DNA of 64,000 nt from Streptomyces sp. SUK 48. Lineage in GTDB: Bacteria > Actinomycetota > Actinomycetes > Streptomycetales > Streptomycetaceae. Each line of letters begins with the position of its first letter. Within the stretch, counting starts at the first letter, position 1. The stretch covers positions 6,548,001 to 6,612,000 of the forward strand of contig NZ_CP045740.1 of assembly GCF_009650765.1 (NCBI RefSeq). Direction: 5' to 3'. A program made the position numbers and the translations under genes. Positions 7,431 through 33,941 of this stretch are shown piece by piece. The notes beneath the pieces are model-generated. The model searched no databases. It saw only the letters and a list, made by a program, of their open reading frames with translations, and was not told where the DNA came from.

Positions 7431-7790
7431 TCAGCCTCCCCAGATGTCAAAGAGCCGGACCTGAAGGACGGCCAGCACCACGCCGCCCGCCGCGGCCGTC
7501 ACCGAACCCCACCGGGTCCGCTCGGCCAGCGACATGAAGCCCGCGGCCGGCACGCACGCGAACGCGCCCAGCAGATACGCCACGAAGATCGCGGTCCCCT
7601 GCGCCGGCTTCTCGCCCCGGGCCAGCTGCACGATCCCGATCACCAGCTGGACCACCGCCAGCAGCGACACCACGGCCATGCCGATGAAGTGCCAGTCCTT
7701 CGTCGGCTGGTCACGATAGGCGGCCCAGCCGCACCACGCGGCGAGCAGCAGCGCGGCGACCCCGGTCACCAGCGTCAGGACAGTGAGCAT
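7431..7790 (-). CDS. small integral membrane protein
   Basis: 119 residues from the ATG at 7790, with about four hydrophobic segments (LTLVTGVAALLLAAWCGW, a second around VVSLLAVVQLVIGIVQL, then two more). The function is not recognised. A longer start at 7904 would overlap the divergent HAD gene and its promoter, so I reject it. It is the first gene of a two-gene operon with the membrane protein ending at 7009. Confidence 0.7.
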   Translation of the reverse strand: MLTVLTLVTGVAALLLAAWCGWAAYRDQPTKDWHFIGMAVVSLLAVVQLVIGIVQLARGEKPAQGTAIFVAYLLGAFACVPAAGFMSLAERTRWGSVTAAAGGVVLAVLQVRLFDIWGG

Positions 7791-7860
7791 GCGGTCGACC
7801 TTATTACGGCGGAAACGGGCCAACGCCGCCGACCCCGCCGTACGCCGTAGGGTCGAGGCC

Positions 7861-8505
7861 ATGACGATCCACGCCCACGCACTCCTGTTCGACAACGACG
7901 GCACCCTGGTCTCCTCCTACGACTCCGTCGTGCGCTGCTGGACGGTCTGGGCCAAGGAGTACGGGGTCACGGCCGAACAGTTCGGGCAGGTGGAGCTGCA
8001 CGGCCGTACCGCGGCCGAGATCGTCGCCGACCTGCTGCCCGCGGACCTGGTGCCCCGGGCCGTCGCCCGGGTCGAGCAGCTGGAGGTGGCGGACGTCTCC
8101 GGCGTACGGCTGCTGCCCGGCACCCGGGAGTTCCTGGACTCCCTGCCCGCCGACCGCTGGGCCGTGGTCACCTCCGCCACCCGCCGGCTCGCCGAGGCCC
8201 GCCTGGCGGCCGTGGGTGTCACCCCGAAGTGCCTGGTCAGCGCCGACGACGTCACCCGGGGCAAGCCCGACCCCGAGCCCTATCTGCTGGCCGCCCGGCA
8301 GCTCGGCGCGGACCCGGCCGACTGCGTGGTCTTCGAGGACGCCCCCGCCGGACTGCGCGCGGCCCGCGCGGCTGGCATGCGCACCGTGGCGTTGGCCACA
8401 ACCCACCGGGCCGAGGAGCTCGACGCCGACCTCGTCGTGGACGACCTCGCGGCCTTGCGCGCACTGGTCACCGACGGGGAAGTGGCGGTCTCCGTCCGCG
8501 ACTGA
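7861..8505 (+). CDS. HAD-superfamily sugar-phosphatase-like hydrolase
   Basis: A 214-residue cytosolic phosphatase. Motif I is FDNDGTLVSS, with the nucleophile in DNDGT near residue 11 (the first D; the middle residue N is a common variant). Motif II is VVTSATR. Motif III and IV residues are GKPDPEPY and VVFEDAPAGLRAA. The cap is a small helical type between motifs I and II, as in beta-phosphoglucomutase-like sugar phosphatases (2-deoxyglucose-6-P or mannitol-1-P phosphatase). The ATG is preceded by TAGGGT and exactly 7 nt, with no ribosome-binding site, suggesting a leaderless mRNA. The substrate is unknown. Confidence 0.88.
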   Translation: MTIHAHALLFDNDGTLVSSYDSVVRCWTVWAKEYGVTAEQFGQVELHGRTAAEIVADLLPADLVPRAVARVEQLEVADVSGVRLLPGTREFLDSLPADRWAVVTSATRRLAEARLAAVGVTPKCLVSADDVTRGKPDPEPYLLAARQLGADPADCVVFEDAPAGLRAARAAGMRTVALATTHRAEELDADLVVDDLAALRALVTDGEVAVSVRD

Positions 8506-8588
8506 GCCCGCCCCCGGGGTGTCCGCCGCTGTCCACTATGCGGACGGCGGCCACCGCTCTTCGGCGGGCTTCTGCTTTACTGGGCCGC

Positions 8589-8681
8589 ATGACCACGACG
8601 AACAGCCGCATCCCTGCGACCGAGGCGACCATGACGCCCGGTGCTGTTTGTCTGTGTCCGTGTCGAATGTGCGCCTTCTAG
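8589..8681 (+). CDS. Cys-rich leader peptide upstream of metNIQ
   Basis: A 30-residue ORF ending MTPGAVCLCPCRMCAF, with four Cys in the last ten codons, three of them TGT, a codon rarely used in this genome type. The rare codons GTT and CGA sit beside them. An internal ATG at 8631 (16 residues) has GAGG 5 nt upstream and may be the true start; the ATG at 8589 has only TTTACT 7 nt upstream. It lies 219 nt before metN, and two hairpins follow (8712-8730 and 8733-8762). This is the layout of a cysteine-responsive attenuator; Cys-rich regulatory leader ORFs are known before sulfur genes in actinobacteria. Its role here is inferred. Confidence 0.7.
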   Translation: MTTTNSRIPATEATMTPGAVCLCPCRMCAF

Positions 8682-8711
8682 AGGGCCCCCGCACCACCTG
8701 AGCCTCGCGCC

Positions 8712-8762
8712 CCGAAGCGAGAGCCGCGGCCCGTCCCACGCCCCTACCCGGGCGAGTGGGAC
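8712..8762 (+). promoter_or_regulatory. candidate attenuator hairpins between leader peptide and metN
   Basis: A first small stem pairs CTCGC with GCGAG around a C-rich loop near 8713-8730. It is followed by a perfect nested hairpin: GTCCCAC (8733-8739) with GTGGGAC (8756-8762), enclosing GCCC (8740-8743) with GGGC (8750-8753). A G/C-rich block next to the leader stop (gagggccccc) could pair alternatively with the later cgagggcc. Confidence 0.5.
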
Positions 8763-8900
8763 CCGAGGGCCGTACCGCGCACACGACGTTCTCCCGCCTC
8801 ACCGCCACCCGAGAACCGTGCCGCGTACCCCACGAACGCACGCAACGCACCCGTGCCCGGGCACACCCGCGCCCGCGCACTCGACAGTGACGGAAATCCT

Positions 8901-9935
8901 GTGATCACCACATCGGGCCTGACCAAGGTCTACCGCTCCCGCGGCCGCGATGTCACCGCCCTCGACGGCGTCGATCTCCACGTCCGCGAGGGCGAGGTCT
9001 ACGGCGTCATCGGCCAGTCCGGCGCCGGCAAGTCCTCGCTCATCCGCTGCGTCAACCTGCTGGAGCGCCCCACCTCCGGCACGGTGACCGTCGCCGGGCA
9101 GGACCTCACCGCCCTGGCCGGCCGCGGCCCGCGCGCGGGCCGGGAACTGCGCCAGGCGCGCAGCCGGGTCGGCATGGTCTTCCAGCACTTCAACCTGCTG
9201 TCCTCGCGGACCGTGCAGGACAACATCGAGCTGCCGCTGGAGATCCTCGGCACCTCCGGGAAGGAACGCTCCCGCAAGGCGCTGGAACTGCTCGACCTGG
9301 TCGGCCTCGCCGACAAGGCCAGGAGCTACCCCGCCCAGCTCTCCGGCGGCCAGAAGCAGCGCGTCGGCATCGCCCGCGCCCTGGCCGGCGACCCCAAGGT
9401 GCTGCTCTCCGACGAGGCCACCAGCGCCCTCGACCCGGAGACCACCCGCTCCATCCTCCAGCTGCTGCGCGACCTGAACCGGCAGCTCGGCCTCACCGTC
9501 CTGCTCATCACCCATGAGATGGACGTGGTCAAGTCGATCTGCGACTCCGCCGCCCTGATGGAGCGGGGCCGGATCGTGGAGTCCGGCACGGTCAGCGAGC
9601 TGCTGGCGACCCCCGGCTCCCAGCTGGCCGCCGCGCTGTTCCCGGTGAGCGGCGAGCGCACCGGCACGGAGCGCACCGTCGTCGACGTCACCTTCCACGG
9701 CGAGGCCGCGACCCAGCCGGTCATCTCCCAGCTGTCGCGCACCTACAACATCGACATCTCGATCCTCGGCGCCGCCATCGACACCGTCGGCGGCCTCCAG
9801 ATCGGCCGGATGCGCATCGAACTGCCCGGCCGCTACGAGGACAACGTGGTGCCCATCGGCTTCCTGCGCGAGCAGGGGCTCCAGATCGACGTCGTGGGCC
9901 AGGAGGCCGCACTGGTGAAGGAAGGTGCCAAGTGA
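8901..9935 (+). CDS. metN: methionine ABC transporter ATP-binding protein
   Basis: A 344-residue ATPase that energises D/L-methionine uptake with the next two gene products. Walker A is GQSGAGKSS, the ABC signature is LSGGQKQR, Walker B ends LLSDEAT, and the H-loop is LLITHEMD. After about residue 265 there is a NIL domain (from TVVDVTFHGEAA to ELPGRYEDN), the regulatory ACT-like domain that binds methionine and inhibits MetNI in transinhibition. The length matches MetN (about 343). I start at GTG 8901, as the residues encoded before it look random. Its stop overlaps the permease start (GTGA). Confidence 0.93.
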   Translation: MITTSGLTKVYRSRGRDVTALDGVDLHVREGEVYGVIGQSGAGKSSLIRCVNLLERPTSGTVTVAGQDLTALAGRGPRAGRELRQARSRVGMVFQHFNLLSSRTVQDNIELPLEILGTSGKERSRKALELLDLVGLADKARSYPAQLSGGQKQRVGIARALAGDPKVLLSDEATSALDPETTRSILQLLRDLNRQLGLTVLLITHEMDVVKSICDSAALMERGRIVESGTVSELLATPGSQLAAALFPVSGERTGTERTVVDVTFHGEAATQPVISQLSRTYNIDISILGAAIDTVGGLQIGRMRIELPGRYEDNVVPIGFLREQGLQIDVVGQEAALVKEGAK

Positions 9936-10684
9936 CCTGGTCCGAGATGCAGCCGCTGCTGTCCGACGCGTGTTCCCAGACCTTCGACATGGTGCTCTGG
10001 TCCACCCTGATCGCCGTCGTCGTGGGCCTCCCGCTCGGCCTCCTCCTCGTCCTCACGGACCGCGGGGGCCTGCTCCAGAACGTCGTCGCCAACAAGGTGA
10101 TCGGCCAGATCGTGAACGTCGGCCGCTCGCTGCCGTTCATCATCCTGATGGTCGCCCTGATGAGCTTCACCCGCTGGGTCACCGGGACGACGATCGGCAC
10201 CGCCGCCGCGGTCGTGCCGCTCGCCATCGGCGGCATCCCGTTCTTCGCCCGCCTGGTCGAGACGGCCGTGCGCGAGGTGGACGGCGGCCTCGTGGAGGCC
10301 GTGCAGTCCATGGGCGGCAACACCTGGACCATCGTCCGCAAGGTGCTCGTCCCCGAGTCCCTGCCCGCGCTGATCGCCAGCACCACCACCACGGTCATCG
10401 CCCTCATCGGCTACTCCGCCATGGCCGGCACGGTCGGCGGCGGCGGCCTCGGCGACCTCGCCGTCCGCTACGGCTACCAGCGCTTCGAGACCGAGCTGAT
10501 GTGGATCACCGTCGGCATCCTCGCCGTCGTCATCTCCCTCATCCAGTTCGCCGGTGACTTCGCGGCCCGCGCCCTGCACCGCCGCGGCGGCCGCTCGGGC
10601 CCCGGGCCCAGGCTGCGGCTGCTGAAGGCCAAGGGCGACAAGGAGCCGGACACGGACACGGCCGAGGTCGCCAAGGCCGCGTAG
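9932..10684 (+). CDS. metI: methionine ABC transporter permease
   Basis: A 250-residue inner-membrane permease with five to six spans, size as expected for MetI. The EAA coupling motif appears as EAVQSMGGNTWTIVRKVLVPES at about residues 122-143. The GTG start overlaps the metN stop, so the pair is translationally coupled. The C-terminus carries a charged cytosolic tail of about 40 residues, longer than in E. coli. Confidence 0.92.
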   Translation: MTWSEMQPLLSDACSQTFDMVLWSTLIAVVVGLPLGLLLVLTDRGGLLQNVVANKVIGQIVNVGRSLPFIILMVALMSFTRWVTGTTIGTAAAVVPLAIGGIPFFARLVETAVREVDGGLVEAVQSMGGNTWTIVRKVLVPESLPALIASTTTTVIALIGYSAMAGTVGGGGLGDLAVRYGYQRFETELMWITVGILAVVISLIQFAGDFAARALHRRGGRSGPGPRLRLLKAKGDKEPDTDTAEVAKAA

Positions 10685-10841: not shown

Positions 10842-11672
10842 GTGCGTAACACCGCCAAGTTCACCACCGCCGTCCTCGCCGCCGGAGCCCTCACCTTCGG
10901 GCTGACCGCCTGCGGCTCCGGAAACTCCTCCGCCTCCCACGACTACAGCGGACCGCTGGTCGTCGCCGCCAGCCCGGTCCCGCACGCCGAGATCCTGAAC
11001 TTCGTCGAGAAGAACCTCGCGAAGAAGGCCGGGCTCGACCTCCAGGTCAAGGAGTTCACCGACTACATCACGCCGAACACGGCGACCGAGGACGGCTCGG
11101 TGGGCGCCAACTACTTCCAGAACCAGCCGTACCTGGACGACTTCAACAAGAAGCGCGGCACCCACATCGTGCCCGTCGTCACGGTGCACCTGGAGCCCCT
11201 CGGCCTGTACTCCCACAAGGTCAAGAAGGCGGGCGACCTGAGGAGCGGTGCGACCGTCGCCGTCCCCAACGACGCCGTCAACGAGGGCCGCGCCCTGAAG
11301 CTGCTCGCCGACAACGGGCTCATCACCCTCAAGTCCGGCGCCGGCAACGAGGCCACCCCCGAGGACATCGCCAAGAACCCCAAGCACCTCCAGTTCAAGG
11401 AGGTCGAGGCGGCCCAGACCCCGCGCTCCCTGGACGACGTGGACGCGGCGGTCGTCAACGGCAACTACGCCATCTCCGCGGGCCTCAAGCCCGCCAAGGA
11501 CGCCCTCGTCCTGGAGTCCGCGAAGAACAACCCGTACGGCAACTTCCTCGCGGTGAAGAAGGGCAACGAGAACGACCCCCGGGTCAAGAAGCTCGCCAAG
11601 CTCCTCACCTCGCCCGAGGTCAAGAAGTTCATCGAGGACAAGTACCAGGGCTCGGTCATCCCGTCCTTCTGA
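10842..11672 (+). CDS. metQ: methionine-binding lipoprotein, NlpA/MetQ family
   Basis: A 276-residue extracellular substrate-binding lipoprotein delivering methionine to MetNI. It has a signal peptide with lipobox LTAC (Cys24) and the MetQ/NlpA fold: LVVAASPVPHAEIL, then VKEFTDYITPN, ANYFQNQPYLDDF and VTVHLEPLGLYSHK, the conserved ligand-pocket segments. The GTG start has AAGGAAAGG about 8 nt upstream. It lies 157 nt after metI in the same direction and is followed by a strong hairpin, so it closes the operon. The family also includes binders of Met-containing dipeptides. Confidence 0.92.
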   Translation: MRNTAKFTTAVLAAGALTFGLTACGSGNSSASHDYSGPLVVAASPVPHAEILNFVEKNLAKKAGLDLQVKEFTDYITPNTATEDGSVGANYFQNQPYLDDFNKKRGTHIVPVVTVHLEPLGLYSHKVKKAGDLRSGATVAVPNDAVNEGRALKLLADNGLITLKSGAGNEATPEDIAKNPKHLQFKEVEAAQTPRSLDDVDAAVVNGNYAISAGLKPAKDALVLESAKNNPYGNFLAVKKGNENDPRVKKLAKLLTSPEVKKFIEDKYQGSVIPSF

Positions 11673-24486: not shown

Positions 24487-24558
24487 TGGACGATACTGGG
24501 ATTGAACCAGTGACCTCTTCCGTGTCAGGGAAGCGCTCTCCCGCTGAGCTAATCGTCC
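24487..24558 (-). tRNA. tRNA-Val (GAC)
   Basis: A 72-nt cloverleaf on the minus strand. The anticodon loop CTGACAC between CTTCC and GGAAG gives GAC, with T-loop GGTTCAATCCC and discriminator A. It is the last of five tRNAs in this cluster. Confidence 0.97.
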
Positions 24559-24587
24559 GCGGACAGTGATCCGGGGATCACGGTCAG

Positions 24588-24659
24588 TGCGCGATACTGG
24601 GATTGAACCAGTGACCTCTTCCGTGTCAGGGAAGCGCTCTCCCGCTGAGCTAATCGCGC
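24588..24659 (-). tRNA. tRNA-Val (GAC)
   Basis: The same body and anticodon loop CTGACAC as its neighbours, but the acceptor stem is GCGCGAT/ATCGCGC instead of GGACGAT/ATCGTCC, with compensating changes on both arms. Discriminator A. Confidence 0.97.
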
Positions 24660-24710
24660 GGGCTTGGATCTTCGAGAGACCCGGGATCTCCGGACGGACC
24701 GGGGATCCAG

Positions 24711-24782
24711 TGGACGATACTGGGATTGAACCAGTGACCTCTTCCGTGTCAGGGAAGCGCTCTCCCGCTGAGCTAATCGTCC
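24711..24782 (-). tRNA. tRNA-Val (GAC)
   Basis: A 72-nt tRNA identical to the copy at 24487-24558, including the acceptor stem. Confidence 0.97.
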
Positions 24783-24786
24783 TTGG

Positions 24787-24857
24787 AGGTGGAGACGGGA
24801 TTTGAACCCGTGTAGACGGCTTTGCAGGCCGTTGCCTCGCCTCTCGGCCACTCCACC
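24787..24857 (-). tRNA. tRNA-Cys (GCA)
   Basis: A 71-nt tRNA. Anticodon loop CTGCAAA between ACGGC and GCCGT gives GCA, acceptor GGTGGAG/CTCCACC, discriminator U as required for Cys identity. Confidence 0.97.
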
Positions 24858-24895
24858 AGGAGTGTAGGGGATCGGGATGACCCCTTCTTCCTTCG

Positions 24896-24968
24896 AGCGG
24901 ACGACGAGGCTCGAACTCGCGACCTCAACCTTGGCAAGGTTGCGCTCTACCAACTGAGCTACGTCCGC
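24896..24968 (-). tRNA. tRNA-Gly (GCC)
   Basis: A 73-nt tRNA. Anticodon loop TTGCCAA between CAACC and GGTTG gives GCC, acceptor GCGGACG/CGTCCGC, discriminator U. It is the first gene of the minus-strand cluster. Confidence 0.97.
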
Positions 24969-33043: not shown

Positions 33044-33115
33044 GGGCGATTAGCTCAGTGGGAGAGCGCTTCGTTCACACCGAAGAGGTCACTGGTTCGA
33101 ACCCAGTATCGCCCA
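33044..33115 (+). tRNA. tRNA-Val (CAC)
   Basis: 72 nt. Anticodon loop TTCACAC between CTTCG and CGAAG gives CAC, acceptor GGGCGAT/ATCGCCC, discriminator A. A perfect terminator hairpin follows. Confidence 0.97.
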
Positions 33116-33124
33116 CCCCGGACC

Positions 33125-33158
33125 GACGGCCCCTCCGCGAAAGAGCGGAGGGGCCGTC
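33125..33158 (+). terminator. terminator after tRNA-Val
   Basis: GACGGCCCCTCCGC-GAAAGA-GCGGAGGGGCCGTC, a perfect 14-bp stem. Confidence 0.9.
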
Positions 33159-33235
33159 GTCGTATTCACCGGTCATGACGAGCCGTCACCCGGTGGGAGA
33201 AGTTCCGGCCACGCACAACTGGCCAAACCCGTCGG

Positions 33236-33251
33236 GGTTTTCCGGAAAACC
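33236..33251. repeat. perfect 16-bp palindrome GGTTTTCCGGAAAACC
   Basis: An A/T-containing palindrome in a GC-rich intergenic region, 133 bp upstream of the SRPBCC gene. It could be a dimeric protein site; I see no second copy. Confidence 0.6.
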
Positions 33252-33383
33252 GCCGGCTTTCCCGCGCGCCGCGCCGGGAGCCGGGAATTCCGGGTGACAT
33301 CAACGCCCGCAAAAAGTAAGCGATCTGAGGTCCGATCAGCGCGCGGCGGGGGGTGGCCGCCCGGGGGCGGGCAGACTCGGCAC

Positions 33384-33830
33384 ATGGACTGGAACCACTA
33401 CCGCTTCCGCAGCCCATGGCGCCTGCCCGTGCCCCCGGCCGCCGTCTTCGCCGTACTGGAACGCCCCGAGGACTACCCCCACTGGTGGCCCCAGGTGCGC
33501 TCGGTGACCCGGCTCGACGACACCACCGGCGTCCTCACCATCCGCTCCGCCCTGCCGTACGCCATGACCTTCACCGCGCACGAGCGGCGCCGCGATCCGG
33601 CCGCGGGAATCCTGGAGATCGCCATGAGCGGCGACATCGAGGGCTGGGCCCGCTGGACGGTCACCGCCGCGGACCCCGGCACGCTCGCCGTCTACGAGCA
33701 GGAGGTCGACGTCCGCAAGCCCCTGCTCCGGCGGCTGGCCGTGCCCGGCCGCGCGGTCTTCCGCGCCAACCACCGCCTGATGATGCGCGCCGGACGGCGC
33801 GGACTGCTGCGCCGGCTGGAAGCGGTTTGA
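33384..33830 (+). CDS. SRPBCC (START/Bet v1-like) family protein
   Basis: 148 residues with the polyketide cyclase/dehydrase-type hydrophobic-pocket fold: WRLPVPPAAVFAVLERPEDYPHWWPQV at the N-terminus, typical of SRPBCC proteins, and a basic C-terminal helix (MMRAGRRGLLRRLEAV). The family binds lipids or small hydrophobic ligands; the role here is unknown. CAGACT plus 6 nt precedes the ATG and no ribosome-binding site is present. The gene sits between two identical tRNA-Val(CAC) genes, and the promoter of the second begins in its stop codon. Confidence 0.85.
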   Translation: MDWNHYRFRSPWRLPVPPAAVFAVLERPEDYPHWWPQVRSVTRLDDTTGVLTIRSALPYAMTFTAHERRRDPAAGILEIAMSGDIEGWARWTVTAADPGTLAVYEQEVDVRKPLLRRLAVPGRAVFRANHRLMMRAGRRGLLRRLEAV

Positions 33831-33856
33831 AGGATCGGCGTCGGGACCTGTATTGT
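33827..33856 (+). promoter_or_regulatory. promoter of second tRNA-Val (CAC)
   Basis: TTGAAG (33827-33832), 18-bp spacer, TATTGT (33851-33856), ending 13 nt before the tRNA. The -35 overlaps the stop codon of the SRPBCC gene. Confidence 0.65.
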
Positions 33857-33869
33857 TCAGTGCGTTCCC

Positions 33870-33941
33870 GGGCGATTAGCTCAGTGGGAGAGCGCTTCGT
33901 TCACACCGAAGAGGTCACTGGTTCGAACCCAGTATCGCCCA
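33870..33941 (+). tRNA. tRNA-Val (CAC)
   Basis: A 72-nt tRNA identical to the copy at 33044-33115 (anticodon loop TTCACAC). Confidence 0.97.

Follow-up and report, generated by a model that had tools for sequence, protein, structure and literature searches.

The segment upstream of metNIQ in this Streptomyces genome is best read as a ribosome-mediated, cysteine-sensing attenuator of the operon, in which an RNA junction inside a short leader ORF would be opened or refolded according to the position of the ribosome; we place the probability of this reading at about 0.55. The leader ORF itself is already in print as metL (SLIV_29928) of S. lividans TK24, MSTTSDRTPATEATTTPGARCMCRRMCAF, which lies upstream of metNIQ without a typical Rho-independent terminator and was called methionine-dependent (PMC8079986). 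metL is the same element, with a peptide identical to two leaders of our collection (L126 and L127), so the first-pass annotation was not the first to see an attenuator candidate here. The accessible part of that publication describes a single species without cross-species comparison, and mentions neither the Cys codons nor an RNA fold within the ORF. What is new relative to it is a probable RNA three-way junction within codons 3-21, backed by some compensatory changes. A literature search, in which subscription papers were mostly outside the scope, returned no report of cysteine control of metNIQ or of an RNA fold in the leader. The features of the locus are as follows, with coordinates given in the window, i.e. 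the whole 64,000-nt stretch analyzed.

8576..8581, plus strand: -10 element TTTACT, 7 nt 5' of the leader ATG, as for a leaderless start
8589..8681, plus strand: leader ORF (metL), 30 codons, MTTTNSRIPATEATMTPGAVCLCPCRMCAF; 28-38 codons in relatives
8597..8606, plus strand: 5' strand of the probable closing stem P1, pairing with 8643-8652 (single-sequence fold, whole-region alignment, pair counts)
8607..8618, plus strand: hairpin P2, CGCA-TCCC-TGCG (single-sequence fold, pair counts)
8619..8642, plus strand: hairpin P3, ACCG-A-GGCG / CGCC-CGGT with one bulged A (fold, pair counts, leader-only consensus fold)
8643..8652, plus strand: 3' strand of P1, overlapping the first Cys codon (fold, pair counts)
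8649..8672, plus strand: Cys codons TGT 8649, TGT 8655, TGT 8661 and TGC 8670, with CGA ATG at 8664-8669
8682..8880, plus strand: C-rich, G-poor untranslated spacer (C 49%, G 28%), candidate Rho-loading region
8704..8721, plus strand: hairpin 1, CTCGC (8704-8708), loop GCCCCGAA, GCGAG (8717-8721); core in 128/139 leaders
8727..8772, plus strand: hairpin 2, nested, not conserved
8878..8896, plus strand: CACTCGACAGTGACGGAAA upstream of metN, complementary to the leader tail, with a weak SD GGAAA
8901..9935, plus strand: metN, GTG start; best match TIGR02314, at 388.9 bits (cut-off 499.7)
9932..10684, plus strand: metI; best match NF008049, 201.6 against a cut-off of 212
10842..11672, plus strand: metQ; best match TIGR00363, 193.3 against a cut-off of 228.85

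The leader ORF runs from ATG 8589 to a TAG stop at 8679-8681 and ends VCLCPCRMCAF; its 16-codon version starts at an internal ATG at 8631. The 16- or 30-codon Cys-rich ORF that had been proposed upstream of metNIQ is thus present, and a similar ORF occurs in 140 of 141 metN upstream regions, the lone exception being Actinoplanes (L046). The clustering of rare TGT codons was also borne out, with three TGT near the stop and TGT making up 6 of 112 Cys codons in the 40 predicted genes of the window. The MetN, MetI and MetQ models are the top family matches of the three downstream genes, all three below the curated cut-offs. On the 5' side, a hairpin that resembles a terminator and has a T-rich tail (8554-8577) lies between the upstream ORF, which ends at 8505, and the leader promoter.

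The TTTACT element ends 6-7 nt 5' of the leader ATG in 130 of 139 distinct relatives, with variants in 3, and a second family of the same order carries TATAGT 7 nt 5' of the leader ATG in all six members. A generic sigma-70 scan found no promoter at the leader, and in this analysis it is the -10 spacing that points to a leaderless uORF. S. lividans TK24 metL is leaderless by RNA-seq according to the available text (PMC8079986); the transcript across the leader that the first-pass annotation had called for is reported for that strain, starting at the leader.

For the comparative analysis we used 139 distinct leaders, 133 from Streptomyces and six from the second family, after removal of one duplicate (L031, equal to L017). 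Six named Streptomyces loci (L031-L036) tie the genus sample to Streptomyces; one of them, L031, is identical to the genus-genome locus L017. Leaders were sought with the pattern RM[C/R] near the stop, which 140 of the 141 regions passed; the counts include L046 as the only one of the other-taxon loci L037-L110, and leave out second-family G406, where too little sequence precedes metN. A covariance model of the leader (R1), calibrated on short random sequence and run with stricter filters in the genus and class searches, matched 379 of 392 same-genus genomes at E <= 1e-5, with a single match per genome except in G002. A metN match better than 1e-100 was absent from 15 of the 392 genomes, and 11 of the 13 R1-negative genomes belong to these 15 at that threshold. 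G008 and G050, also without R1, have metN at a contig end, where the leader would fall off the contig. R1 misses therefore mostly follow metN absence or contig ends. Four genomes combine an R1 match with a poor metN match: G224, G352 and G375 have metN fragments directly after the leader, and in G001, a genome that is 79% complete, metN was not found.

In a class sample of 197 genomes, 16 of them from the genus, R1 reached E <= 1e-3 in no genome outside the genus (best 0.0015). A leader outside the order was rejected as well: CGAATGTG occurs within 700 nt 5' of metN in 0 of 14 class-level metN loci, where R1 gave chance-level matches only; one of the 14 has TCGAATG at -380. Two loci from another family of the same class (L243 and L245) carry a different two-Cys uORF, MAPEH...RRCVPLPGGRCR, about 200-220 nt 5' of metN, possibly an independent or distant counterpart of the metN leader. 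In the own genome this leader holds the single copy of TGYCGAATGTGY; elsewhere in the order, beyond the genus, 15 genomes have 29 copies between them. The sequence is not unique in general, because among 20 places inspected 5 are metN leaders and 15 lack a metN start mark downstream.

The way in which the leader varies argues that it is translated. In the 111 leaders with the anchor, Cys1 (the first Cys codon) and CGA are 6, 9, 12, 15, 18, 24, 33 or 36 nt apart, all multiples of three, and the stops are divided between TAG (79) and TGA (60) among the 139 distinct leaders, both in frame. Taken together with the -10 spacing, these in-frame length changes and alternative stops speak for a read peptide.

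Conservation of Cys codons in relatives had been set beforehand as a test of cysteine sensing and came out in its favor: all 139 distinct leaders keep at least two Cys in their final 20 residues, with turnover of individual positions. Cys1 is Cys in 126 of the 133 Streptomyces leaders and lost in 7, while the Cys after RM is replaced by Arg in 29 of 139. Over the last 14 residues Cys accounts for 22.1% (430/1946), Arg for 18.3% and Met for 16.1% in the 139 leaders, compared with 0.74% Cys and 1.7% Met in the window genes. Segments gained between Cys2 and RM often bring Cys with them (RLMC, PC, QC, HMC and RMC). Of 462 leader Cys codons, 293 are TGT and 169 TGC, so that TGT makes up ~63%, against 6 of 112 in the window genes. 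Cysteine is favored as the sensed amino acid by these Cys-rich tails, the Cys that are always kept, the gained segments that add Cys and the TGT excess. Attenuation by sensing of Cys-tRNA, and perhaps of Met too, is the best reading of these patterns, from which we infer the sensed amino acid.

A rather unlikely alternative is the proposal of the S. lividans authors that the leader senses methionine, here extended to Met and Cys jointly, with the Met codons of CMC and RMC as sensors. It agrees with the published name metL and with the predicted import of Met by the operon, and the enrichment of Met in the tail (16.1% of the last 14 residues) leaves methionine or joint sensing some probability. 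The window leader tail has a single Met codon against four Cys codons, 29 of the 133 genus leaders have a codon other than Met after Cys1, in 22 of them one for Leu, Thr, Val or Ala, and the gained Cys2-RM segments include Cys in more types than Met. The constant Met of RM also needs a qualified reading. ATG follows CGA in 139 of 139 leaders, and the hexamer CGA ATG is identical throughout, including the second family, which lacks the junction; the search pattern required RM[C/R] and so accounts in part for the constancy of the Arg and the Met, but not for the choice of the CGA codon. CGA is rare, with 2.8% of Arg codons in the window genes. The constant ATG thus sits within a constant CGAATG containing a rare codon, and a constraint at the nucleotide level may explain the constancy of Met. 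Cysteine sensing, our preferred reading, also has parallels in other bacteria.

In mycobacteria, leaderless polycysteine uORFs are reported to be cysteine-responsive in M. smegmatis (Canestrari et al. 2020, as cited in the accessible parts of PMC9031893, PMC9094748 and PMC13236596). The metN leader resembles them, as described there, in being a leaderless uORF with Cys codons 5' of sulfur genes. The mycobacterial uORFs have contiguous Cys codons and are followed by cysteine biosynthesis genes. In the metN leader the Cys codons are set apart from one another, as C-x-C..RMC in the window and almost all relatives, an RNA junction lies within the ORF, and the genes that follow encode an importer. 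Conserved terminator hairpins are likewise absent from the mycobacterial cys leaders (PMC1262725). The uORFC-8-2 motif 5' of cysS in Rhodobacterales, in the available description, places tandem Cys codons within a stem, with an intrinsic terminator downstream (PMC8632094); it shares with the metN leader a uORF, conserved Cys codons and structured RNA, but the structure of the metN leader lies mostly 5' of the Cys codons and has no terminator downstream. Three metN leaders, searched up to E 10, matched no NCBIfam leader model, NF042934 and NF042936 included. A second uORF of the own genome (L286/L288, near G000:C1:1942550-1942630), MPGTGIALVSRRHVDLGRMSSAICPAS, contains a TGT Cys codon and lies 5' of a sulfite/nitrite reductase-family (PF01077) gene; it matches NF042934 above the cut-off and NF042936 below it. 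This uORF and NF042934 represent a different sequence family from the metN leader.

The most significant fold of the region lies within the ORF (8596-8661, z -4.1) and was absent from the first-pass annotation. Folding of the leader-to-metN alignment gives a junction that spans codons 3-21, with P1 formed by ACGACGAGC/GCUCGUUGU, P2 by CGCA/UGCG and P3 by ACCG-A-GGCG/CGCCCGGU. In an alignment of 75 of 109 distinct Streptomyces leaders (A1), 95.2% of 1575 cells are paired, compared with 94.3% in shuffles and 26.6 to 50.9% in slid versions of the structure. Two-sided changes occur at 5 junction pairs, at least one per stem, compared with 1.6 in shuffles and no more than 3 in slid versions; the control slid by -2 has 12 two-sided cells against 10 in the real junction, yet 3 such pairs against 5. 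In P3, 2 of 8 pairs stay paired despite changes on both sides. Most junction pairs hardly vary, further pair types in the junction are no more numerous than in shuffles (218 of 500 reach the real count), and 29 of the 500 shuffles score as high in covariation. The leader-only consensus fold retains P3 and part of P2 and is without P1, whose 5' strand pairs with the tail instead. In the window lineage P1 has shifted register, with AACAGC/GCUGUU in place of GACGAGC/GCUCGUU. Among 45 sequences taken from the 133, the junction has a median fold z of -2.75, and 40 of the 45 fall below -2. Hence P3 is well supported, and the full three-way junction is probable. The junction is likely the reason for the very low synonymous variation of the leader, in which GGT (130/133), GCT (130/133) and CGT (114/133), all rare codons, are maintained.

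Such a structure could itself be the regulator, as a riboswitch or a protein-binding site, with the ORF incidental. We regard this as improbable, although little synonymous variation in the leader and pairing-preserving two-sided changes in all three stems would be expected of it. Length changes stay in frame and both TAG and TGA stops are in frame, as noted above, and the second family keeps the start, the Cys tail and the stop without matching P2/P3. In that family R1 scores ranged from 16.7 to 23.1 bits, with the match at the leader in five of the six members; the start and the tail carried it, and P2/P3 were omitted or unpaired. Unpaired junction and loop bases vary among leaders, unlike a ligand pocket. 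An Rfam search of window positions 7500-10500 gave no match at the junction; with E allowed up to 1, its one hit was a chance match within metN on the minus strand, and at gathering scores the whole window contains tRNAs only. Seven tRNA genes lie in two groups at 24487-24968 and 33044-33941.

For a ribosome-mediated attenuator that senses cysteine, the steps would be as follows. The leaderless mRNA would start at the leader ATG, as the S. lividans data of others (in the accessible text) and the -10 spacing here suggest. The ribosome would read ~30 codons and meet the cluster of Cys codons just 5' of the stop, where a shortage of Cys-tRNA would make it pause, and the pause would raise expression of the methionine importer. 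Methionine can supply cysteine via reverse transsulfuration. The closing stem P1 extends to the first Cys codon, so by its geometry a ribosome held there, given its usual footprint, would occlude P1 and P3 on their 3' sides and keep the junction melted; a ribosome at the stop would leave the junction free to refold. The output may lie in transcription, continuing through a C-rich spacer that would suit Rho, or in translation of metN, whose RBS is weak. The earlier idea that stalling at Cys codons opens expression is partly supported: the Cys codons are retained, while on the side of the output modeled opening of the RBS is near zero, a terminator is missing and hairpin 2 is unconserved.

Two hairpins, one of them nested, had been described downstream of the ORF. 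Both are present at the locus, and the nested one (hairpin 2) is not conserved. The region 8683-8780 folds at -47.7 kcal/mol (z -2.1) in the window, but hairpin 2 was rejected as a functional element, being unconserved in the alignment with a zone median z of -0.84 in 45 of 133 Streptomyces sequences. Hairpin 1 is conserved in sequence yet of ordinary stability (median z -0.42). Its 8-nt loop GCCCCGAA, sought with a pattern that allowed one extra C, is constant across 128 of the 139 relatives, and no member of the second family has it. The stop region retains AGGGCCC while the stop codon moves between TAG and TGA in most leaders, and pairing of the hairpin 1 loop, GGGC with GCCC, is possible.

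Between leader and metN the window has no intrinsic terminator and hence no attenuator of the trp type, and TTTT occurs in 9 of the 139 spacers. The C/G ratio of the window spacer is reached by 27 of 2552 overlapping 200-nt segments of the window on both strands, and the spacers of the 139 leaders have a median of 46% C and 28.5% G. Upstream of metN, TCGACAG is found in 123 of 139 regions; the 14 nt 5' of metN contain GGAG, GAGG or AGGA in 0 of 139 and weaker matches in all, with GGAAA in 89 and GGAAAA in 7. Simple unmasking of this RBS by a stalled ribosome drew no support from a thermodynamic model that placed the ribosome at 10 positions, using 133 Streptomyces sequences (131 for the second Cys and 101 for the third). 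The median change was about 0.1 kcal/mol with losses about equal to gains; with the ribosome at Cys1, for instance, the RBS became more open by over 1 kcal/mol in 31 sequences and less open by as much in 28.

The leader tail, UGUCGAAUGUGCG, pairs strongly with CGCACUCGACA 5' of metN in the whole-region consensus fold. This pairing beats shuffles, with a median z of -1.4 compared with -0.6 to +0.7 in control windows, but ranks among the best 2 of 40 in only 26% of the sequences. Cognate pairs were no better than swapped pairs (p 0.33, and p 0.35 in the 29 divergent rows), and the match is lost in L202 and L203. As coevolution was not found, this pairing was set aside as an established mechanism and kept as a candidate. 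For the output step we lean, on sequence grounds, towards Rho acting at the C-rich spacer over translation of metN from the weak RBS.

Published expression data bear on the signal. Under oxidative stress S. coelicolor raises metN 5.24-, metI 3.51- and metQ 2.26-fold, alongside 8- to 18-fold increases of sulfate-to-cysteine genes, with H2O2 named for the qRT-PCR in the available text (PMC4991794). The joint rise of metNIQ and cys genes fits a shared signal of cysteine shortage. Its authors credit the induction to the redox two-component system SenS-SenR, with a SenR-like site predicted 31 nt 5' of SCO1559 (PMC4991794). Control of metNIQ by SenS-SenR at the DNA level, with the leader of little weight, draws on that predicted site and seems to us quite unlikely: SCO1559 is outside the five EMSA targets given in the accessible part of the paper (PMC4991794), a distance of 31 nt would place the site inside the transcribed spacer and away from the leader promoter, and it would not account for the retention of ORF and junction throughout the genus. 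In an S. clavuligerus strain without a megaplasmid, metNIQ is the most up-regulated operon of its group according to the accessible text (PMC5702194). The operon is also raised in feather medium, again in the part available (PMC7181669), which sits awkwardly with cysteine shortage, as sulfur amino acids should be plentiful there.

The retention of the leader across the genus, together with its RNA fold, makes it probable that this genus-wide element tunes the metNIQ importer to the supply of sulfur amino acids. A more specific and tentative form of the cysteine-sensing attenuator, to which we would assign rather low odds, is a dual-coded one: the same bases would specify the sensing peptide and a junction placed 5' of the regulatory codons, the freed strands would reset the C-rich spacer through Rho loading or pairing at the metN RBS, and the constant rare CGA before AUG would act as a timing pause, so that cysteine shortage is coupled to methionine import without a terminator hairpin. 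If the cysteine-sensing reading is right, the published methionine assignment of metL would be corrected, and the order of events from ribosome stalling to gene output would be directly testable in model strains. About 60 nt would then be doubly constrained, as coding sequence and structured RNA, across nearly the whole genus, and control of methionine uptake by Cys-tRNA would join the sulfur circuits of Streptomyces.
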